A DNA stretch of 56,385 nucleotides from Bacillota bacterium (lineage in GTDB: Bacteria > Bacillota > Clostridia > Oscillospirales > Feifaniaceae), in contig JAUZPM010000005.1 in assembly GCA_030705925.1 (NCBI GenBank), positions 1 through 56,385 of the forward strand, written 5' to 3'. Below are positions 31,565 through 41,650 of this stretch, piece after piece (within the stretch, counting starts at the first letter, position 1; each line of letters starts with the position of its first letter). The position numbers were made by a program, and so were the translations under genes. Below the pieces are notes generated by a model that saw only the letters and a list, made by a program, of their open reading frames with translations, had not been told where the DNA came from and made no database searches.

Positions 31565-34165
31565 ATGGATACAAATAAGCAATCTAATGATTTTGATGTT
31601 GAGAAGGAGATTAATGTCTTAGCTGAAAGGGCAGCGAAGGCCGGAGAAGAAATGCTTTCATTAAATCAGGAGCAGGTAGATAATATTGTTAAAGCTATGG
31701 CACTTGCCGGCTTAGACAAACAAATGTATCTAGCGAAACTTGCAATTGAAGAAACTAAAAGAGGTGTTTACGAGGATAAGATCACAAAGAACATCTTTGC
31801 AACAGAATACATTTATCACAGTATCAAATATGATAAAACGGTTGGAATTATAGATGATAACGAGAATGAGGACTTTGAAGTTGTGGCTGAACCGGTTGGC
31901 ATTATTGCAGGTGTAACTCCTGTTACAAATCCTACATCAACTACAATGTATAAATCAATAATAGCTATGAAAACAAGAAATCCGATAATTTTCGGATTTC
32001 ATCCCTCTGCTCAAAAAAGCAGCAGTGAAGCGGCAAGAATAGTCAGAGATGCTGCAATAGCTGCAGGAGCGCCTGAAAACTGCATCCAATGGATTGAACA
32101 TCCATCACTTGCGGCAACAAATGCCTTAATGAACCATCCAAAGGTAAAATTGATTTTAGCTACCGGTGGCTCGGGAATGGTAAAAAGCGCGTATTCCTGC
32201 GGGAAACCGGCACTTGGCGTTGGCCCTGGCAATGTTCCGTGCTTCATTGAAAAAAGCGCTAATTTGGATCGAGCCGTAAATGATCTTATTCTCTCCAAAA
32301 CGTTTGATAATGGAATGATCTGCGCATCTGAGCAGTCGGTAATCGTTGAAAAAGAAATCTCAAAAGCGTTTGAGAAATTGATGACCGATAACAAATGCGT
32401 TTTCTTAACCAAAGAAGAAATAAGTAAGCTTGAAAATTTCTGCTTTAATAAAGAAAAAGCCTGCGCTTTGAATGCGGATATAGTCGGTAAACCCGCAGCT
32501 TTTATTGCTAAATCCGCAGGAGTAAATGTACCGGACGATACAAAGATCCTACTTGCAAAACTGGATGGCGTTGGGGTTGACTTCCCGCTTTCTAAAGAAA
32601 AGCTATCCCCTATCCTTGCATATTACGTCGTTAAAGATGCTAAAGAAGGAATAAACAGGGCTGAACAGGTAATTTCTTTTGGCGGACTTGGCCATTCGGC
32701 GGTTATTCACAGTGAAAATCATGAGATCATTGATGAATACTCAGCTAAAATGAAAGCAGGACGTATTATCGTCAATTCTCCGGCTTCTCAGGGTGCTATC
32801 GGCGACATATATAACACGAACATGCCCTCATTAACACTAGGGTGCGGCACATTCGGCGGGAATTCAACGACTGTTAACGTATCTTCTGTCAACCTTATAA
32901 ACAAAAAAAGAGTGGCAAAAAGGAGAGTCAACATGCAGTGGTTCAAAGTTCCTGACAAGATATATTTTGAAAGAGGTTCTATTCAGTATCTTGAAAAAAT
33001 GCCTGACATAACTAAAGCTTTTATAGTTACTGATCCCAACATGGTTGAGTTTGGATATGTTGACAAAATCCTGTATTACCTCCGTAAACGTCATGAATAT
33101 TGCCATGCAAAAATCTTCAGTGATGTCGAGCCAGATCCTTCGTTTGATACTATACGCCGCGGTGTGGCTATTATGAATGAATTCGAGCCGGATGTTATCA
33201 TCGCTCTGGGCGGCGGATCTGCAATTGATGCGGCGAAAGGCATGTGGCTATTCTATGAGCATCCTGATGCAGACGTAAATGCTATGAAACTTAAATTCCT
33301 TGATATAAGAAAAAGAGCATACAAATTCCCGAAGCTCGGCACTAAAGCAAAACTTGTCGCAATTCCGACAACCTCTGGAACAGGCTCTGAAGTGACATCT
33401 TTCGCGGTTATTACTGATAAACAAAAAAATATAAAATATCCTCTTGCGGATTATGAGCTTACTCCAAACGTCGCAATTATTGATCCTGAACTTGTTATGA
33501 CTGTTCCAAAACGCATAACTGCTGATACAGGAATGGATGTGCTCACCCATGCCATTGAAGCATACGTTTCAATAATGGCATCGGATTATACAGACGGACT
33601 TGCGATGAAGGCAATAGAGATGGTGTTCGAATTTCTGCCCCGTGCTTACCATAACGGAAGCGATGCAGTAGCCCGTGAAAAAATGCATAACGCAAGCTGC
33701 ATGGCCGGTATGGCATTTACAAATGCATTTCTTGGCGTAAATCATTCTATGGCGCACAAGATTGGCGGCGAATACCATGTGCCACATGGTCGTGCAAATG
33801 CTGTCCTTCTCCCCTATGTAATTGACTATAACAGCAAGACTCCGACTAAGCGTGTTTCCTTCCCGAAATACGAGGCTTTCATTGCGGATAAAAAATATGC
33901 TGAAATTGCAAAACGCCTTGGATTAAAAGCTTCTACAACAGAAGAGGGCGTCGGGTCTCTGGTCAAAGCAGTTAAGGATCTAATGAAGGAACTTGAGGTT
34001 CCGATGTGCTTTAAAGACTGTGGTGTTAATGAAGGCGCATTCTTTGCTAATCTTGATGAACTTGCAGACAGAGCATTTGAAGATCAGTGCACGACAGCTA
34101 ATCCAAGACTTCCGCTGGTTAGTGAAATAAAAGATATTTTAACAAAAGCCTATTACGGAAAATAA
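31565..34165 (+). CDS. adhE: bifunctional aldehyde/alcohol dehydrogenase AdhE
   Basis: 866 residues, the full-length fusion. The N-terminal CoA-acylating aldehyde dehydrogenase shows GITPVTNPTS-like GVTPVTNPTSTTMYK and catalytic Cys253 in DNGMICASEQS. The C-terminal iron-dependent alcohol dehydrogenase shows GGGSAIDAAKG, PTTSGTGSEVTSFAV, and the His metal ligands in HAIEAYVS and NHSMAHKIGGEYHVPHGRANA. It reduces acetyl-CoA to ethanol with two NADH and forms spirosomes. AAGGAGG precedes the ATG. Two Rex-like boxes cover its promoter, and the Hfs cluster starts 65 bases downstream. Confidence 0.98.
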   Translation: MDTNKQSNDFDVEKEINVLAERAAKAGEEMLSLNQEQVDNIVKAMALAGLDKQMYLAKLAIEETKRGVYEDKITKNIFATEYIYHSIKYDKTVGIIDDNENEDFEVVAEPVGIIAGVTPVTNPTSTTMYKSIIAMKTRNPIIFGFHPSAQKSSSEAARIVRDAAIAAGAPENCIQWIEHPSLAATNALMNHPKVKLILATGGSGMVKSAYSCGKPALGVGPGNVPCFIEKSANLDRAVNDLILSKTFDNGMICASEQSVIVEKEISKAFEKLMTDNKCVFLTKEEISKLENFCFNKEKACALNADIVGKPAAFIAKSAGVNVPDDTKILLAKLDGVGVDFPLSKEKLSPILAYYVVKDAKEGINRAEQVISFGGLGHSAVIHSENHEIIDEYSAKMKAGRIIVNSPASQGAIGDIYNTNMPSLTLGCGTFGGNSTTVNVSSVNLINKKRVAKRRVNMQWFKVPDKIYFERGSIQYLEKMPDITKAFIVTDPNMVEFGYVDKILYYLRKRHEYCHAKIFSDVEPDPSFDTIRRGVAIMNEFEPDVIIALGGGSAIDAAKGMWLFYEHPDADVNAMKLKFLDIRKRAYKFPKLGTKAKLVAIPTTSGTGSEVTSFAVITDKQKNIKYPLADYELTPNVAIIDPELVMTVPKRITADTGMDVLTHAIEAYVSIMASDYTDGLAMKAIEMVFEFLPRAYHNGSDAVAREKMHNASCMAGMAFTNAFLGVNHSMAHKIGGEYHVPHGRANAVLLPYVIDYNSKTPTKRVSFPKYEAFIADKKYAEIAKRLGLKASTTEEGVGSLVKAVKDLMKELEVPMCFKDCGVNEGAFFANLDELADRAFEDQCTTANPRLPLVSEIKDILTKAYYGK

Positions 34166-34176
34166 AATATCGATGT

Positions 34177-34212
34177 CAAGGGGTACGGGCTTTAACCTGT
34201 GCCCCTTGTTTT
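34177..34212 (+). terminator. imperfect terminator between adhE and the Hfs cluster
   Basis: CAAGGGGTACGGG pairs with CCTGTGCCCCTTG with one wobble and one mismatch, followed by only TTTT. It is strong enough to reduce but probably not abolish read-through. No separate promoter fits in the remaining 20 bases before the next gene. Confidence 0.7.
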
Positions 34213-34230: not shown

Positions 34231-34488
34231 ATGGATCTAATGGTATGCGTCGGAAGCTCTTGCCACCTTAAAGGCTCGCGCGAGGTTATAGGTCGGTTAG
34301 AAGCGCTTATGAGCGATTATAAACTTGCAGAAAAGCTATCGTTAAAGGGGTCATTCTGCATGGGAAGGTGTACAGGAAGCGGAGTATCTGTCAAGTTTGA
34401 CGATAAATATTATTCTATATTGCCGGACGGGGTTGATGATTTTTTTATTGCTGTTATACTTCCTGCTTTTAAGATGCAATTGGGGTGA
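34231..34488 (+). CDS. thioredoxin-like 2Fe-2S protein of the Hfs cluster
   Basis: 85 residues. Cysteine pattern VCVGSSCHLKGS and, about 35 residues later, FCMGRCTG is that of the C-terminal domain of NuoE/HydC-type thioredoxin-like 2Fe-2S ferredoxins. It would carry electrons to or from the hydrogenase homologues. The gene ends 4 bases before the next one and has AAGGAGAG upstream. It corresponds in place to the first gene of Hfs-type clusters in thermophilic Clostridia, though I assign it from the motif rather than from a direct comparison. Confidence 0.85.
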   Translation: MDLMVCVGSSCHLKGSREVIGRLEALMSDYKLAEKLSLKGSFCMGRCTGSGVSVKFDDKYYSILPDGVDDFFIAVILPAFKMQLG

Positions 34489-34492
34489 TTTT

Positions 34493-36181
34493 ATGGGTCT
34501 AATTGCAGTAAAAAAGGCAAATTGTAAGAACTGTTACCGTTGCCTTAAGAATTGTTCAGTAAAATCTATCAGATATAAAGATGAAAAAGTGGACATTATC
34601 GATAACCAATGCATTCTTTGCGGCAGATGCATAATTACCTGCGAGCAGAAGGCAAAATCTCTGACAAATGATGTCGAGGCGATTAAGGCGTTGGCAATAG
34701 GAGAGGAACGTACGGTCGTAAGTTTGGCGCCATCTTTTATAACTGCTTATGGGACAGAAAATGCTGGAAGAGTTGCTGCTGCTTTACGGAGTTTAGGCTT
34801 TGACTACATAGAAGAAACAAGTATTGGAGCCAGATACGTTACTGATGAGTATGCTAACTTAATAGAACTTGGTGAGATGAGTAATATTCTTTCCAGCTGC
34901 TGCCCTACTGTAAACATGTTAGTGCAGAAATATTATCCTGACCTTGTAAGTTTAATAGCTCCTGTACTTTCCCCCATGCAGGCACATGGTAAACTGATAA
35001 AAGAAAATTACGGCATGGATACTCGTGTCGTATTCATAGGCCCGTGTGTGTCAAAGCTTGATGAAGCAAAGAACGGCGGATATATAGACGGGGCCATAAC
35101 CTTTAGGCAGCTTGATGATTTGCTTAATGAAAAGAATATTTCTATATTAAAAATGCCTAGTGAGACATTTGACCGCCATTCAGGCTATTCACGTATCTAT
35201 CCTATTGAGAATGGCATTTTATATGACCTAAAAAACAGGGATCATGTGGGCGACCGTTACGACTTTATAAGTGTAAGCGGTATTGATAATATTAAACAAA
35301 TGCTAGCAGACATTAGAAGCGGCAGACTTAACCATAGTTTTATAGAGGTTAATGCCTGCACCGGCGGGTGTGTAGGCGGACCTATGATGCCGGAAAAGAG
35401 CACTCCTCTTTACCGAAGCAAAAATAAAGTAATGGACTATGCTGGTGATACTTTAGAAGAGCCTGAATATAGCCCAATCGATATATCGTATTATTATAAG
35501 CAGGCAGGTTTAATAACTGACATTCCGGGCGAAGAAACAATTAGAAAGATCTTAACTCAAATAGGGAAACCAACAAAGGAACAGGAACTGAACTGTGGCA
35601 GCTGCGGTTACCCCACCTGCCGGGACAAAGCTATAGCTGTATATCAGGGCAAGGCTGAACTTTATATGTGCATGCCATATATGAACGATATTTCACAGAC
35701 ACTTTCAAATGTCGTATTAGGCGCTTCACCCAATTTTATAGTTGCTGTAGACGGGGATATGAAAATCAAAGAAATCAATGCTTCCGCGCTTAAGCTTTTT
35801 AGGGTGTCCAGAACAGAGGCGCTTAAACACTTCCTTTTCGAGTATATCGACACAACAGATTTTCTAAAGGTGTTTGATGAAAAAGAAAATATCTATAACA
35901 AGAAGGTTAGTTACGATAACTTTGGAGTTGTAACCGATCAGACAATTATTTATGTTAAAGAGCACGGTCTTGCAGTAGGCGTTTTAATGGACATCACAGA
36001 AAAGGTCGAAGCGGCTGAAAATATGTATAATTTAAGAATGGAATCGGTTGAAATGGCACAGAAGGTAATAGACAAACAGATGACAGTGGCACAGGAGATT
36101 GCAAGTCTGCTTGGCGAGACGACAGCTGAAACAAAGGTTACACTTAATAAACTTAAAAACCTAATCCTGAAGGACAGGTAA
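34493..36181 (+). CDS. hfsB: [FeFe]-hydrogenase-like sensory protein with PAS domain (HfsB type)
   Basis: 562 residues. Two 4Fe-4S motifs at the N-terminus (CKNCYRCLKNC, CILCGRCIITC) are followed by a hydrogenase large-subunit domain with H-cluster ligands SSCCPT (Cys136), GPCVSK (Cys185) and ACTGGC (Cys289, Cys293). Next come a single-cluster domain (CGSCGYPTC, later CMPYM), a PAS domain (about 415-510, FIVAVDGDMKIKEINASALKLF) and a C-terminal coiled helix. The ATG at 34493 follows GGGGTGA; the longer reading from 34397 overlaps the previous gene. The PAS and phosphatase partner suggest sensing of H2 or redox state rather than bulk catalysis. Confidence 0.9.
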   Translation: MGLIAVKKANCKNCYRCLKNCSVKSIRYKDEKVDIIDNQCILCGRCIITCEQKAKSLTNDVEAIKALAIGEERTVVSLAPSFITAYGTENAGRVAAALRSLGFDYIEETSIGARYVTDEYANLIELGEMSNILSSCCPTVNMLVQKYYPDLVSLIAPVLSPMQAHGKLIKENYGMDTRVVFIGPCVSKLDEAKNGGYIDGAITFRQLDDLLNEKNISILKMPSETFDRHSGYSRIYPIENGILYDLKNRDHVGDRYDFISVSGIDNIKQMLADIRSGRLNHSFIEVNACTGGCVGGPMMPEKSTPLYRSKNKVMDYAGDTLEEPEYSPIDISYYYKQAGLITDIPGEETIRKILTQIGKPTKEQELNCGSCGYPTCRDKAIAVYQGKAELYMCMPYMNDISQTLSNVVLGASPNFIVAVDGDMKIKEINASALKLFRVSRTEALKHFLFEYIDTTDFLKVFDEKENIYNKKVSYDNFGVVTDQTIIYVKEHGLAVGVLMDITEKVEAAENMYNLRMESVEMAQKVIDKQMTVAQEIASLLGETTAETKVTLNKLKNLILKDR

Positions 36182-36183
36182 GT

Positions 36184-37353
36184 ATGGTTTATATTGATAC
36201 AAGTTTTAAAAGCCTCAATAAATTAGGTGAAGAGCTGTGCGGAGACCGCGTTGAAGTTGTACGTACAGACAATGGCGTAATATTAGTGCTTTCTGACGGC
36301 TTGGGAAGTGGCGTTAAAGCAAATATCCTATCAACGCTTACCTCGAAAATAATTTCAACAATGATGCGTGAAGGCGCTTCGATAGAGGATACGGTTGATA
36401 CGATTGTGCATACCCTTCCAGTATGCAGTTTGCGGAAGGTTGCATACTCAACGTTCTCTATTCTTCATATTTCGAGCGACGGTAATGGTTATTTAGTTGA
36501 ATTTGATAATCCGGGTTGCATCTTTGTTCGAGACGGAAAGCAGGTAAATTTCGAATACATTACACGAACTGTTGCGGGCAAAAGCATAAAAGAGGCACGT
36601 TTCTCGGTTGATATCGGCGATACATTGGTTTTGATAAGCGACGGCGTCGTTTATGCCGGCATCGGCGCACTGCTCAATCTCGGATGGGATTGGGATAATG
36701 TCGCGAAATATGTAACGAATGAATCAAATACTGCCTCTACTTCGGCGCGTCTTACTTCCCTGCTCAGCTCTGCCTGCGACGAGCTTTATCAGCATAAACC
36801 AGGGGATGATGCGACCGTTGCAACTGTAAAAATCAGACCCCTTCAGGAAGTGAATTTACTGACAGGTCCTCCGCTTAATCGAGAGGACGATGATAAACTC
36901 GTCAGAGAATTTATGGAGTCAAAAGGGCTTAAGATCATATGCGGAGGCAGCAGCGCCAACATGCTCTGCCGCGTTACAGGCAAAAATATTGAGACACTTT
37001 TGTCTTCATCAAATCCTGATGTGCCTCCGATCGCCCATATAAAAGGGGTTGATCTTGTAACTGAAGGGGTATTGACACTTAGGAAAACAGTTGAGATAAT
37101 ACGCAAGTATCTTGATGATCCAACTGAATTCGAAAGTCTTGAGCAGATAGATGAAAATCACGGGGCCGCAATGATTGCAAAAGTACTTATGGAACATTGT
37201 ACAAGTCTTAACCTTTTTATTGGCAAAGCGATCAATCCGGCTCATCAAAATCCGAATTTACCCGTTGATTTAAGCATTAAACTTCGTATTTTAGAAGATC
37301 TATATAATCTTATGATACGAGCCGGAAAAAAGGTTAAGCGCACTTTTTACTAA
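36184..37353 (+). CDS. SpoIIE/PP2C-type phosphatase of the Hfs cluster
   Basis: 389 residues. The first 215 are a PP2C-like phosphatase of the SpoIIE/RsbU group with metal-binding motifs LVLSDGLGSG, LISDGV and KPGDDATV. The remaining 170 residues (starting near KLVREFMESKGLKIICGGSSAN) form a separate domain that I do not recognise, with a conserved-looking GGSSANMLCRVTG. There is no membrane segment, so it is cytoplasmic. It starts 2 bases after the sensory hydrogenase gene. Its phosphoprotein substrate is unknown: no anti-sigma antagonist (STAS) or kinase gene lies beside it. Confidence 0.88.
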   Translation: MVYIDTSFKSLNKLGEELCGDRVEVVRTDNGVILVLSDGLGSGVKANILSTLTSKIISTMMREGASIEDTVDTIVHTLPVCSLRKVAYSTFSILHISSDGNGYLVEFDNPGCIFVRDGKQVNFEYITRTVAGKSIKEARFSVDIGDTLVLISDGVVYAGIGALLNLGWDWDNVAKYVTNESNTASTSARLTSLLSSACDELYQHKPGDDATVATVKIRPLQEVNLLTGPPLNREDDDKLVREFMESKGLKIICGGSSANMLCRVTGKNIETLLSSSNPDVPPIAHIKGVDLVTEGVLTLRKTVEIIRKYLDDPTEFESLEQIDENHGAAMIAKVLMEHCTSLNLFIGKAINPAHQNPNLPVDLSIKLRILEDLYNLMIRAGKKVKRTFY

Positions 37354-37363
37354 GGAGATTTCA

Positions 37364-38830
37364 ATGAATGAAATAAGAGATATTAACGAGATCAAGGAAG
37401 AGGTATTGGTAAAAGTATGTTCCCTTGCTTTTGATGGCACACTTGAAGAAGAAGCAGAGAATATCCCATATCAAATGATACCTGGTATCAAGCCGCGTTT
37501 TCGCTGCTGTGTTTACCGTGAACGGGAAATAATAAGGCAGCGCGTGCGTCTCGCAATGGGAAAACTGCCGGCTGAAGCACAGTACGCTGAACTTGATCCA
37601 TCGCAGGTTGTTCATGTTATACCGTGCGCATGCGAGGGTTGCCCTATTCAGCGTTATACTGTAACTGACAACTGTCAGTCATGTCTTGCTCAAAAGTGCG
37701 TCAAAGCATGCCGTTTCGGAGCTATTACCAAAACGAGCAAAGGTGCGGTCATAGATAAGGATAAGTGTAAAAAATGCGGCAAATGCTATGAGGCTTGCCC
37801 TTATAATGCAATCGTTGATATGGAGCGCCCTTGCAGAAGGGCATGTCCCGTAAATGCTATTCAGATAGACGACAATGATATAGCTATAATAGATAAGGAT
37901 AAATGCATAAACTGCGGGAATTGTGTCATTGGCTGCCCGTTTGGAGCAGTTTCGGACTTGTCTTTGATAACAAATGTGATAGATTATCTTAAAAACCCTG
38001 AGTTGAATGTTTACGCCGTAGCAGCGCCGGCAATAGAAGGTCAGTTTAGAGAAATTTCAATTGGACAGATAAAAAAAGGATTAAAGAAATTGGGGTTTGT
38101 CGGTGTATATGAAGCCGCACTTGGTGCAGACGCAGTTGCGGCAGAAGAGGCAGCCGAACTGGCTGATTGCAAGTCAACCAGAAAAAAACTCACATCATCC
38201 TGCTGCCCAGCCTTTGTAGATCTTATTGAAAAAAACTATCCGGAGCTTTGCGATAATGTTTCAAGCCTTTTATCTCCGATGGCAGCTACAGCAAAATATA
38301 TACGTGAAAAAATCGATAACAGAGCGGTTATAGTATTTATAGGCCCTTGTATTGCTAAAAAAGCAGATGTCTTGCAGAATCATATAGGTCTCATAAGTGG
38401 AGTGCTGACATTTCAGGAGCTATCCGCTATGCTCAAGGCAAAAAAAGTTAATTTAAAAGAATTTGAATTGGATAGCGAATTGGCAACCAGTTTCGGCAAG
38501 GGATTTGCAAAATCGGGAGGTGTTACGGCTGCCGTAATGAAAGCGCTTGAAGAAAGAGGTGAGGTTCAGCCAATAGCTGCTCAAAAATGCAGCGGGATAG
38601 CTGAATGCAAAACGGCACTTTCACTGTTAAAAGCCGGTAAGCTATCCGAGGATTTCATTGAAGGAATGGCATGTTCAGGAGGGTGCATTGCAGGCCCCGG
38701 AATAATTGGTGATCCGGGGCTTTCACGAAGGACGTTTGATAAAAAGATTGATAATAGAAATAATAAAATTATAAAGAACATCCACAAGTATAATTTTGAT
38801 ACGTTAAATATACACAAACACAAGAGATAA
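37364..38830 (+). CDS. hfsD: [FeFe]-hydrogenase, ferredoxin-type (HfsD / group B)
   Basis: 488 residues. The N-terminal third carries Fe-S motifs (CACEGCPIQRY, CQSCLAQKCVKAC, CKKCGKCYEACP, CINCGNCVIGCP). The H-domain has all ligands: TSCCPA (Cys280/281), GPCIAK (Cys329) and ACSGGC (Cys437, Cys441). It makes or consumes H2 with ferredoxin in the cytoplasm and needs HydEFG maturases, not seen here. AAGGAG precedes the ATG and the gene follows the phosphatase by 10 bases. The C-terminus is short and basic; its last codon and stop are built into the terminator stem. Confidence 0.95.
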   Translation: MNEIRDINEIKEEVLVKVCSLAFDGTLEEEAENIPYQMIPGIKPRFRCCVYREREIIRQRVRLAMGKLPAEAQYAELDPSQVVHVIPCACEGCPIQRYTVTDNCQSCLAQKCVKACRFGAITKTSKGAVIDKDKCKKCGKCYEACPYNAIVDMERPCRRACPVNAIQIDDNDIAIIDKDKCINCGNCVIGCPFGAVSDLSLITNVIDYLKNPELNVYAVAAPAIEGQFREISIGQIKKGLKKLGFVGVYEAALGADAVAAEEAAELADCKSTRKKLTSSCCPAFVDLIEKNYPELCDNVSSLLSPMAATAKYIREKIDNRAVIVFIGPCIAKKADVLQNHIGLISGVLTFQELSAMLKAKKVNLKEFELDSELATSFGKGFAKSGGVTAAVMKALEERGEVQPIAAQKCSGIAECKTALSLLKAGKLSEDFIEGMACSGGCIAGPGIIGDPGLSRRTFDKKIDNRNNKIIKNIHKYNFDTLNIHKHKR

Positions 38831-38868
38831 ATAAGAAAGAACGCCAACGGCGTTCTTTCTTATTTATC
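38826..38868 (+). terminator. 20-base-stem terminator that includes the hfsD stop codon
   Basis: The 20 bases at 38826-38845 and 38849-38868 are exact reverse complements around the loop AAC. The core is AAGAACGCC / GGCGTTCTT. The stem starts inside the last sense codon of hfsD. It is the strongest hairpin in the window, though the T-tract is inside the stem rather than after it. Confidence 0.85.
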
Positions 38869-39053: not shown

Positions 39054-39189
39054 TATAGTATTAATGTGCATTTTTCACAAATTGCATGTTATATTTCCTT
39101 TAAAGTCTGACATAACTTTCTTGAATTTTGTTTTGTTTGAAAATTAAAGGAATCGTATAAAAGCATTGAATATTAACAGGAGGAAAGCA

Positions 39190-40746
39190 ATGGGCAATAC
39201 ATTATTGCTAGTTGTTTCCTGTGCGGTTTCGGCGATTCTCTCGGGAATTATTCTTTTTTTTGTCGGTATAAAATATAGAAAAAGCATAGCTGAAGGAAAG
39301 ATTGGCTCTGCAGAGACAGAGGCAACCAGGATTATTAATGATGCTATAAAAACTGCGGAAAACAAGAAAAAAGAAGCCGTTCTGGAAGCAAAAGAGGAAA
39401 TTTTAAAAAGCAGACAGGAATCAGAACGTGAGTTAAAAGAGCGGCGCAAAGAAGTTCAGCGTTCAGAAAACCGCCTGCAGCAAAAAGAAGAAGCGATAGA
39501 CAAGAAATACGAGACACTTGAAAAAAAGGAAGAAAAACTTAATCAAAAGCTTCAGGAAGTTGAAGCTACACAGGAGGACGTCTCAAATATTAAAAAGCAG
39601 CAATGGGACGTGCTTGAAAGAATATCTGGTTTTACAGTCGATCAGGCAAAAGAATATCTTATAAATCGGTTAGAAAATGAAATTGTTCATGAACAGGCTT
39701 TAAAAATTCAAGAGCTTGATCAAAGATTTAAAGAGGAAAGTGACAAAAAAGCAAAGGAAATCATAACGCTCGCAATTCAAAAATGCGCGGCCGACTATGT
39801 TGCCGAAGCAACCGTTTCAGTCGTGGCTCTTCCAAACGATGAGATGAAAGGCCGCATAATAGGCCGTGAAGGAAGAAATATCCGGGCGCTTGAAACACTT
39901 ACTGGCGTTGACCTTATAATTGACGATACCCCGGAAGCAATCACAGTATCAAGCTTTGATCCTATAAGACGTGAAATCGCCAGATTGTCGCTTGAAAGAT
40001 TAGTGCATGACGGACGCATCCATCCGGCAAAGATCGAGGAAACGGTTGAAAAGACCAAGCGAGACATTGAAAACATTATTAAGCAGGAAGGCGAAAAAGC
40101 GATGTTTGAGACCAATACATACGGTCTCCATCCAGAGCTTGTCAAACTGCTGGGCAGATTAAAGTATAGAACCAGTTATGGTCAGAATGTTTTGCTGCAT
40201 TCTATTGAAGTATCTCATATTGCAGGAATCATGGCATCCGAACTTGGCATCGACGTTAAACTTGCTAAACGAGCAGGGCTTTTACATGACATCGGCAAGG
40301 CGCTCGATCATGAAATTGAGGGTTCCCATATTGAAATCGGCGTAGATGTTGCGAGAAAATATAAAGAGAGCGACATAATTATTAATGCGATAGAAAGCCA
40401 TCATGGTGACGTTGAGCCTCATTCTATCATCGCAGCTCTAGTTCAGGCAGCAGATGCTATATCTGCGGCAAGGCCGGGAGCACGCAGAGAAAACCTTGAA
40501 ACTTATATTAAACGTCTCGAAAAGCTTGAGGAAATATCAAATAGCTTTGAAGGAGTTGAGCGTTCATTTGCAATTCAGGCCGGCCGTGAAGTAAGGATTA
40601 TGGTTAATCCTGTTGCAATTTCAGACGATGATATTGTACTGCTAGCTCGTAATATAGTTAAAAAAATCGAAGGTGAGCTTGAATATCCGGGGCAGATCAA
40701 GGTAAATGTAATACGTGAAAACAGAGCTGTTGATTACGCGAAGTAA
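39190..40746 (+). CDS. rny: ribonuclease Y
   Basis: 518 residues, the usual length. An N-terminal membrane helix ([23 protein letters not shown]) anchors it. A long charged coiled coil (about 40-190) follows. The KH domain has [17 protein letters not shown], and the HD domain has [17 protein letters not shown] and ESHHGDVEP. RNase Y starts mRNA decay at the membrane. The ATG at 39190 is chosen because AGGAGG lies 7 bases upstream; an ATG 24 bases earlier is not well placed. It pairs with ymdB downstream, as in Bacillus. Confidence 0.97.
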
Positions 40747-40760
40747 CTGAATAATAATCA

Positions 40761-40796
40761 AAAACTGGCGCCACAGCAAAGAGGCGTCAGTTTTTT
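40761..40796 (+). terminator. terminator of rny
   Basis: AAAACTGGCGCC pairs with GGCGTCAGTTTT (one G-T), followed by TT. ymdB begins about 85 bases later, so it may have its own promoter (not clearly seen). Confidence 0.85.
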
Positions 40797-40879
40797 AATT
40801 TACTTAAATAATCTATTGCTTAGTTGGCATTTCGCGGCATATAATTACAATGTGGTATAGTTAGTATGAAGGAGCATTT

Positions 40880-41650
40880 ATGAAATTATTATTTATCGGA
40901 GATGTTGTAGGAGCCAAGGGTAGAGCCTTTCTAAAGAGTACATTATGGGCATTAAGGCGCGAGACCGGGGTTGACGTAGTTATAGCAAATGGAGAAAATT
41001 CAGCTGATAATAACGGAGTGACTCCCCAGTCTGCGGACGAACTGTTTGAAGCTGGGGTAGATATAATAACAGGAGGAAACCATTCTTTTCAAAGACGTGA
41101 GATTTATACGTATCTCGCGGAGAAAGAATATATACTTAGACCGGCAAATTATCCAAGCGGCGCGCCAGGAAAAGGAATGTGCATTTATAATACAGGAAAA
41201 AGTGATATAGCCGTTATCAGTTTGAGTGGGATCGTTTTTTTAGATGCTCTTGATTGTCCGTTCAGAGTAGCAGATACACTGCTTAAAGAAGCAGCCCTCA
41301 AAACGAAAATAATTGTTATAGATTTTCATGCAGAAGCAACCAGCGAAAAACGCGCATTTGCTGAATATGTCAAAGGCAGAGCCTCTGCGGTACTCGGTAC
41401 ACACACACATGTTATGACATCTGATGCGCAGGTTCTGGGAGGAGTGACCGGTTTCATAACCGATGTGGGCATGACTGGGCCTACAGATTCGATTATAGGG
41501 GTTGGAAAAGAAGAAGTAATAAAGAAATTCTTAACTAAAATGCCGGTTCGATTTAAAGAAGGAGAAGGTATTGCAAAAATCAATGCCGCACTTTTAGATA
41601 TTGACGAAGCCACAGGTAATTGTATTAGAATTGAAACTATTATAAAATAA
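40880..41650 (+). CDS. ymdB: YmdB-type metallophosphoesterase (TIGR00282)
   Basis: 256 residues. The family is read from MKLLFIGDVVGAKGRAFL (metal-binding Asp), VVIANGENSADNNGVT, ITGGNHSF, IVIDFHAEATSEKRAF and VLGTHTHVMTSDAQVL. YmdB is a dinuclear-metal phosphodiesterase, active on 2',3'-cyclic nucleotides or cAMP in vitro, that affects biofilm and motility and is functionally tied to RNase Y. AAGGAG lies upstream. Adjacency to rny supports the call. Confidence 0.94.
   Translation: MKLLFIGDVVGAKGRAFLKSTLWALRRETGVDVVIANGENSADNNGVTPQSADELFEAGVDIITGGNHSFQRREIYTYLAEKEYILRPANYPSGAPGKGMCIYNTGKSDIAVISLSGIVFLDALDCPFRVADTLLKEAALKTKIIVIDFHAEATSEKRAFAEYVKGRASAVLGTHTHVMTSDAQVLGGVTGFITDVGMTGPTDSIIGVGKEEVIKKFLTKMPVRFKEGEGIAKINAALLDIDEATGNCIRIETIIK

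Follow-up and report, generated by a model that had tools for sequence, protein, structure and literature searches.

The [FeFe]-hydrogenase homologue HydS and the SpoIIE-type phosphatase encoded directly downstream of it probably (about 0.6) belong to an hfs-type (C3) hydrogen-control operon, in which H2 would act on HydS, HydS on the phosphatase and the phosphatase on a Ser/Thr phosphoprotein that sets hydrogenase and ethanol formation, with the C-terminal domain of the phosphatase tuning or targeting the enzyme. Both genes lie in the window, the 56,385-nucleotide stretch of contig JAUZPM010000005.1 (Bacillota bacterium, Feifaniaceae) that was analysed as a whole. Gene order, conserved pairing, intact catalytic motifs and a domain family with its hydrogenase association were observed directly. 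The pairing of HydS with a phosphatase is of an already known kind, that of HydDB group C3 and of the hfsABCD operon; the novelty is the C-terminal domain, which is widespread, undescribed and ligand-binding-like. The identity of HydS partners is a step that recent work lists as missing (PMC13104023). The system bears on H2 sensing in fermenting bacteria of the gut and in thermophiles, and on how these cells decide whether to form hydrogen, acetate or ethanol. The pair from this gut-type anaerobe lends itself to testing because it is compact, and its C-terminal domain, a component of hydrogen control that lacks annotation, is directly assayable.

Organisation of the locus and known counterparts

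The + strand of the window carries, in a row, genes for AdhE, an 85-aa 2Fe-2S protein, HydS, the SpoIIE-type phosphatase and a group B [FeFe]-hydrogenase. From the 2Fe-2S gene onwards (34231-38830, one strand) this is the hfsABCD order of 2Fe-2S/HfsA, HydS, phosphatase and hydrogenase.

31565..34165, + strand: AdhE, bifunctional aldehyde/alcohol dehydrogenase (866-aa ORF), upstream neighbour
34177..34208, + strand: hairpin of 13 bp resembling a terminator, with UUUUG after it, in the gap that separates adhE from the hfs genes (predicted folding energy -23.9 kcal/mol, z -5.8)
34231..34488, + strand: 85-aa 2Fe-2S thioredoxin-like protein in the HfsA position (Pfam PF01257, 21.5 bits, slightly under the cut-off)
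34493..36181, + strand: HydS, group C (C3) putative sensory [FeFe]-hydrogenase, 562 aa (PF02906, 183 bits)
36184..37353, + strand: HfsC-type phosphatase, 389 aa (ORF)
37364..38830, + strand: group B [FeFe]-hydrogenase in the HfsD position (TIGR04105, 562 bits against a cut-off of 450)
38826..38868, no strand assigned: 20-bp hairpin at the operon end (fold -27.8 kcal/mol, z -9.2), terminator-like on the - strand

HydS starts with the ATG at 34493 and stops at 36179-36181; after two bases (GT) follows the ATG of the phosphatase at 36184. As the 13-bp hairpin and its short run of U stand between adhE and the 2Fe-2S gene, adhE may be transcribed apart from the hfs genes. This hairpin, which was not among the matches of a consensus terminator scan, is judged from its predicted fold to be a probable terminator, and it counts against the favoured reading of the locus.

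HydDB group C3 is defined as “phosphatase-linked (putative)”, with its function given as undetermined (PMC5037454). The features taken as marks of this group are all found here, namely the H-cluster ligands, a PAS domain after the H-domain, an adjacent Ser/Thr phosphatase and a Cx2Cx4Cx16C motif, the assignment being one by features; the C-terminal domain of the phosphatase goes without mention in the passages on the group (PMC5037454). The same order of small protein, PAS-bearing [FeFe]-hydrogenase, serine phosphatase and [FeFe]-hydrogenase is known from hfsABCD of Thermoanaerobacterium saccharolyticum, the likeness being one of gene order (PMC5707799, PMC11837493), although in our locus adhE lies directly upstream. 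The final hydrogenase of the hfs operon belongs to group B (PMC8924675).

Among the single deletions made in T. saccharolyticum by Eminoglu et al., loss of hfsA or hfsB increased ethanol and the adhE transcript, deletion of hfsC or hfsD gave no rise in ethanol or adhE, and deletion of hfsB increased hydrogenase activity (PMC5707799). Adapted strains carry hfsB/C disruptions (PMC13277313). In T. thermosaccharolyticum hfsD alone restores high ethanol in the full deletion, and since hfsD alone is sufficient for the high-ethanol state, the contribution of the phosphatase is less certain (PMC11837493). The eight-gene HydS/HydA2 cluster of Ruminococcus albus has a group C hydrogenase, a phosphatase, a fermentative hydrogenase and AdhE in common with our locus, and growth of R. 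albus together with an H2-consuming partner brought these genes down 111-fold (PMC6776011). The H2-sensing signal chain suggested in the first-pass annotation agrees with this published hfs/HydS genetics and with comparative genomics; it is not new, however, having been proposed already (PMC5037454, PMC5707799, PMC6776011).

The HydS protein

The H-cluster ligands of HydS were assigned by alignment as C137, C185, C289 and C293 and are invariant in 42 of 42 homologues. The earlier annotation, which had placed them at 136, 185, 289 and 293, was correct in that all four ligands are kept but was one residue off for the first. C136 is the neighbouring cysteine; it is equivalent to the proton-transfer residue C299 of CpI and is kept in 36 of the 42 homologues. 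CpI residues S319, M353 and M497 correspond to A156, G183 and N287, equivalences that derive partly from a reading of the CpI alignment. Judged by sequence, proton-path and second-sphere positions other than C136 would thus differ as they do in sensory enzymes.

35594..35671, + strand: C-terminal [4Fe-4S] site of HydS, Cx2Cx4Cx16C with C368, C371, C376 and C393 (exact motif; PF04060, 41.8 bits)
35720..35917, + strand: PAS domain of HydS, residues 410-475 (Pfam PF00989, E 4e-4, 20.7 bits; cut-off 22.6)
36068..36145, + strand: conserved tail of HydS, residues 526-551, candidate docking element (homologue alignment)

The M2f/M2e sensory hydrogenases share with HydS the H-cluster ligands, the Cx2Cx4Cx16C motif and a Gly at the M353 position (as in TmHydS). 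The same cysteine motif has also been described for HydS enzymes (PMC8163306). M2f/M2e enzymes are, however, described as being devoid of the CpI C299 cysteine, the equivalent of which is retained here (PMC8163306), and a low turnover of HydS is not assured since it keeps this proton-transfer cysteine, without which the characterised sensory enzymes are described. Retention of C136 would suit a HydS that is mainly a slow catalytic hydrogenase, with the phosphatase as a passenger. This we consider highly improbable, as A156 stands at the S319 position and G183/N287 at M353/M497, the pairing is kept across many genera, and hydrogenase activity rises rather than falls on loss of hfsB (PMC5707799).

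The PAS domain announced in the earlier annotation is real though weak, its score lying under the Pfam cut-off. The tail 3' of it, QM..AQEIASLLGETTAETK, is nearly invariant among HydS homologues: Q529, A537, L540 and G541 occur in 42 of 42 and most of IASLLGETTAETK in 38-41. Such conservation makes the tail a candidate docking element.

The phosphatase and its C-terminal domain

36184..36834, + strand: SpoIIE/PP2C catalytic domain, N-terminal 217 residues (PF07228, 51.4 bits, E 1.6e-13)
36829..37350, + strand: C-terminal domain, residues 216-389 (174 residues), undescribed family, predicted Rossmann-like
36865..36873, + strand: GPP motif at the end of strand 1, G228-P229; G and first P at least 90% conserved in 26 diverse sequences
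36940..36948, + strand: CGG motif at the end of strand 2, C253-G254, at the start of GGSSANMLCRVTG; C at least 90% conserved and first G invariant in the 26 sequences
37051..37068, + strand: DLVTEG motif after strand 3 and before helix 3, T293-E/D-G295; last G invariant in 26, T at least 90% conserved
37222..37245, + strand: GKAINPAH motif at the end of strand 4, G347...N351; G and N invariant in 26

The PF07228 match and the GT spacer bear out the description of a PP2C/SpoIIE-type phosphatase lying 2 bases beyond the HydS stop. Its metal-site motifs C19-G-D21, D38-G39, S152-D153-G154 and D208-D209 are at least 95% conserved in 41 sequences. The N-terminus matched SpoIIE (3t91) by profile with an E value of 5e-16, and the best Foldseek matches of its AlphaFold model were SpoIIE, RsbX and RsbU. 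With these proteins it shares the PP2C fold and the metal-site aspartates, but it has no N-terminal regulatory region and no dedicated STAS partner, and carries the new C-terminal domain. Since the CGD, DG, SDG and DD motifs are conserved and the PP2C domain is closest to SpoIIE, the predicted enzyme is likely to be catalytically active.

The last 170 or so residues, which the earlier annotation could not relate to anything, proved equally unfamiliar to profile searches: residues 216-389 gave no significant match to Pfam, NCBIfam or PHROGs models, and 17 relatives gave none to Pfam or NCBIfam. An AlphaFold2 model built from four sequences only showed a Rossmann-like alpha/beta fold (pLDDT 82, pTM 0.80). 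Rossmann-like folds bind ligands at their strand-end edge, and in the model combined with the 26-sequence alignment the conserved residues sit at the ends of strands 1, 2, 3 and 4. Foldseek searches of the PDB and of viral structures returned nothing under E 0.001, the best PDB value being no better than 6e-3. On a second look the closest structural match was a NuoG domain (7awt_G 371-532), which superposed over 119 residues with an rmsd of 3.2 and a Z score of 9.8; methylglyoxal synthase and UbiX reached Z about 5-6. The NuoG Rossmann-like domain and the methylglyoxal synthase fold share a three-layer alpha/beta arrangement with the model and no sequence relation was seen; this likeness is one of common architecture, not proof of kinship, and the lack of a clear solved relative does not prove a new fold. 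GmhA was rejected as a relative, the profile match against the PDB (E 0.006-0.019) being the sole pointer and too weak to trust.

The C-terminal domain occurs in 122 of 398 genomes of the phylum (about a third). Stand-alone copies of ~158 aa are encoded directly 3' of the bifurcating hydrogenase genes HydABC in three genomes (L133, L135 and L136), and a stand-alone protein of 190 aa follows a 2Fe-2S gene in L070; on account of these copies the domain belongs with hydrogenases and not with phosphatases alone. The phosphatase that partners HydS in L085 and L086 has lost its catalytic motifs together with those of the C-terminal domain, and this joint loss suggests that the two domains work together.

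We propose that the domain may bind a ligand and serve the phosphatase either as a second input or as a dock on the hydrogenase. As a tentative extension, the family could be a hydrogenase-associated sensor of a redox or energy metabolite (e.g. a nucleotide), such that the phosphatase would integrate H2 with that metabolite and the copies beside HydABC would regulate bifurcating hydrogenases without a phosphatase. A rather unlikely reading is that the domain is a docking module which brings the phosphatase to its hydrogenase or 2Fe-2S partner, the substrate being the hydrogenase machinery and not a transcriptional regulator. The positions of the stand-alone copies after HydABC and beside a 2Fe-2S gene are in keeping with docking, as is the gain in hydrogenase activity on hfsB loss (PMC5707799), but the invariant residues gather at the Rossmann-like ligand site and are not scattered over the surface, and transcript changes have also been reported in R. 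albus (PMC6776011).

Conservation of the HydS-phosphatase pair

The HydS-specific tail and the phosphatase C-terminal domain, searched for separately, were found in 82 and 79 of 295 genomes of the order respectively, the latter figure after removal of four marginal matches, and 77 genomes were shared by a hand count of the overlap. HydS alone was found in 5 genomes and the phosphatase alone in 2; coordinates place 5 of these 7 at contig ends or in fragments, while the other two (G008 and G068) hold variant loci with a degenerate phosphatase-like partner and a TnpB-like protein. Neighbourhoods were compared in the 61 fetched loci that contain the phosphatase, L084 and L087 among them having been fetched on account of HydS. 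HydS directly adjoins the phosphatase in 59 of them (58 by script, plus L066, whose overlap fell outside the script limits), and the exceptions are L088, which stops at a contig edge, and L128, an orphan phosphatase. The spacing between the two genes peaks at overlapping stop and start codons, and where a second copy exists it is again a pair (one genome has both L042 and L068). Of the 61 loci, 52 have the 2Fe-2S gene within 4.5 kb, 28 have the group B hydrogenase nearby and 21 have AdhE within 8 kb.

Over all 28 loci used for distance correlation, the C-terminal domain seemed to track the HydS PAS domain best. We discarded this as evidence of interaction: after removal of three outliers every pair among HydS, the phosphatase domains and HydB gave 0.91-0.97, so the correlation cannot tell interaction from co-inheritance.

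Candidate partners and proposed mechanism

No STAS gene adjoins the pair, as had been pointed out from the window, and the statement holds genome-wide: the single STAS protein (PF01740) of this genome, which is 95% complete, is SpoIIAA, whose gene has those of SpoIIAB and a sigma factor as neighbours. Since that one protein is the SpoIIAA of the sporulation switch, the phosphatase is unlikely to have a STAS output. Classical partner switching, with the phosphatase acting on a STAS anti-anti-sigma factor, would fit the nearest solved phosphatases (SpoIIE, RsbX and RsbU) and the presence of SpoIIAA/SpoIIAB; given that the genome also encodes a separate SpoIIE-like protein of 779 aa, we regard it as very unlikely.

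Seventeen of the 61 loci have an APH-fold kinase gene within 8 kb, and 17 have Rex nearby. The kinase (Pfam APH, weak Pkinase/RIO) is seen at L049:12147-12893 (-), at L041:1161-1901 (+) and in 15 further loci, often between adhE and the 2Fe-2S gene. In contrast to the R. albus cluster, no homologue of the APH-fold kinase and no Rex-type DNA-binding domain was found in this genome, although both recur beside homologous loci; either one was therefore ruled out as a universal target, frequent as they are in relatives' operons.

Elsewhere in the genome, contig C103 (L082 2-4972) carries a bifurcating hydrogenase operon with HATPase_c_2, group D HydS, DRTGG, PHP, NuoE, HATPase and NuoF. The group D HydS, PAS-less and with an SSACP motif, gives this genome another putative H2 sensor. 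The RsbW-like HATPase beside it is a candidate opposing kinase. A two-operon circuit can be drawn in which this HATPase is the kinase and the phosphatase its opponent, the APH-fold kinase taking that part in relatives. The gene content of C103 and the 17 loci with a nearby APH-fold kinase lend themselves to such a circuit; the link between the operons is, however, purely inferential and this genome has no APH-kinase homologue that we could find, and we hold the circuit to be unlikely.

For the hfs-type operon that we favour, HydS would bind H2 at a slow H-cluster and pass the signal on, by way of the PAS domain and the conserved tail, to the phosphatase, which is the product of a separate gene. 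This enzyme would dephosphorylate a Ser/Thr protein other than the sporulation STAS protein, thereby adjusting the neighbouring hydrogenase and ethanol flux, while the C-terminal Rossmann-like domain would bind a small ligand or a hydrogenase subunit and so tune or target the enzyme. In this scheme H2 sensing, signal transfer and ligand binding are the steps that we infer.

Variant loci

L128 (6590-7726, -) encodes an orphan phosphatase, with no HydS, whose catalytic domain is internally deleted and whose C-terminal domain is intact. At L130:6129-7293 (-) phosphatase and C-terminal domain occupy two reading frames (243 and 139 aa), through a frameshift or a natural split.

At L084:7513-9054 (+), L085:8800-10245 (+) and L086:3648-5081 (-), HydS and a degenerate phosphatase-like partner are followed by a TnpB/Cas12f-like protein, which keeps its zinc ribbon and by eye is missing at least two of the three RuvC catalytic residues. 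It occurs once each in 4 of the 295 genomes, in two genera, one copy being broken. By its sequence the protein resembles a TnpB that has been domesticated, is nuclease-dead and has become tied to an H2 sensor; a literature search for a TldR-hydrogenase link found none. A contig filed as viral in IMG/VR (L075:534-5572) carries the end of a group A hydrogenase gene, HydS and the phosphatase beside a serine recombinase gene, which suggests an integrated element next to the operon.

Lastly, genes for RNase Y and a YmdB-like protein lie 3' of the hfs operon both in the window (39166-41650) and in a Sebaldella MAG (L034:12862-15315), with identities between the two of 49% and 44% respectively; the single-sequence scan of genome contigs gave two loci only. 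The phosphatase of the Sebaldella MAG is 68% identical to that of the window, and thus nearer to it than any found in the same order.
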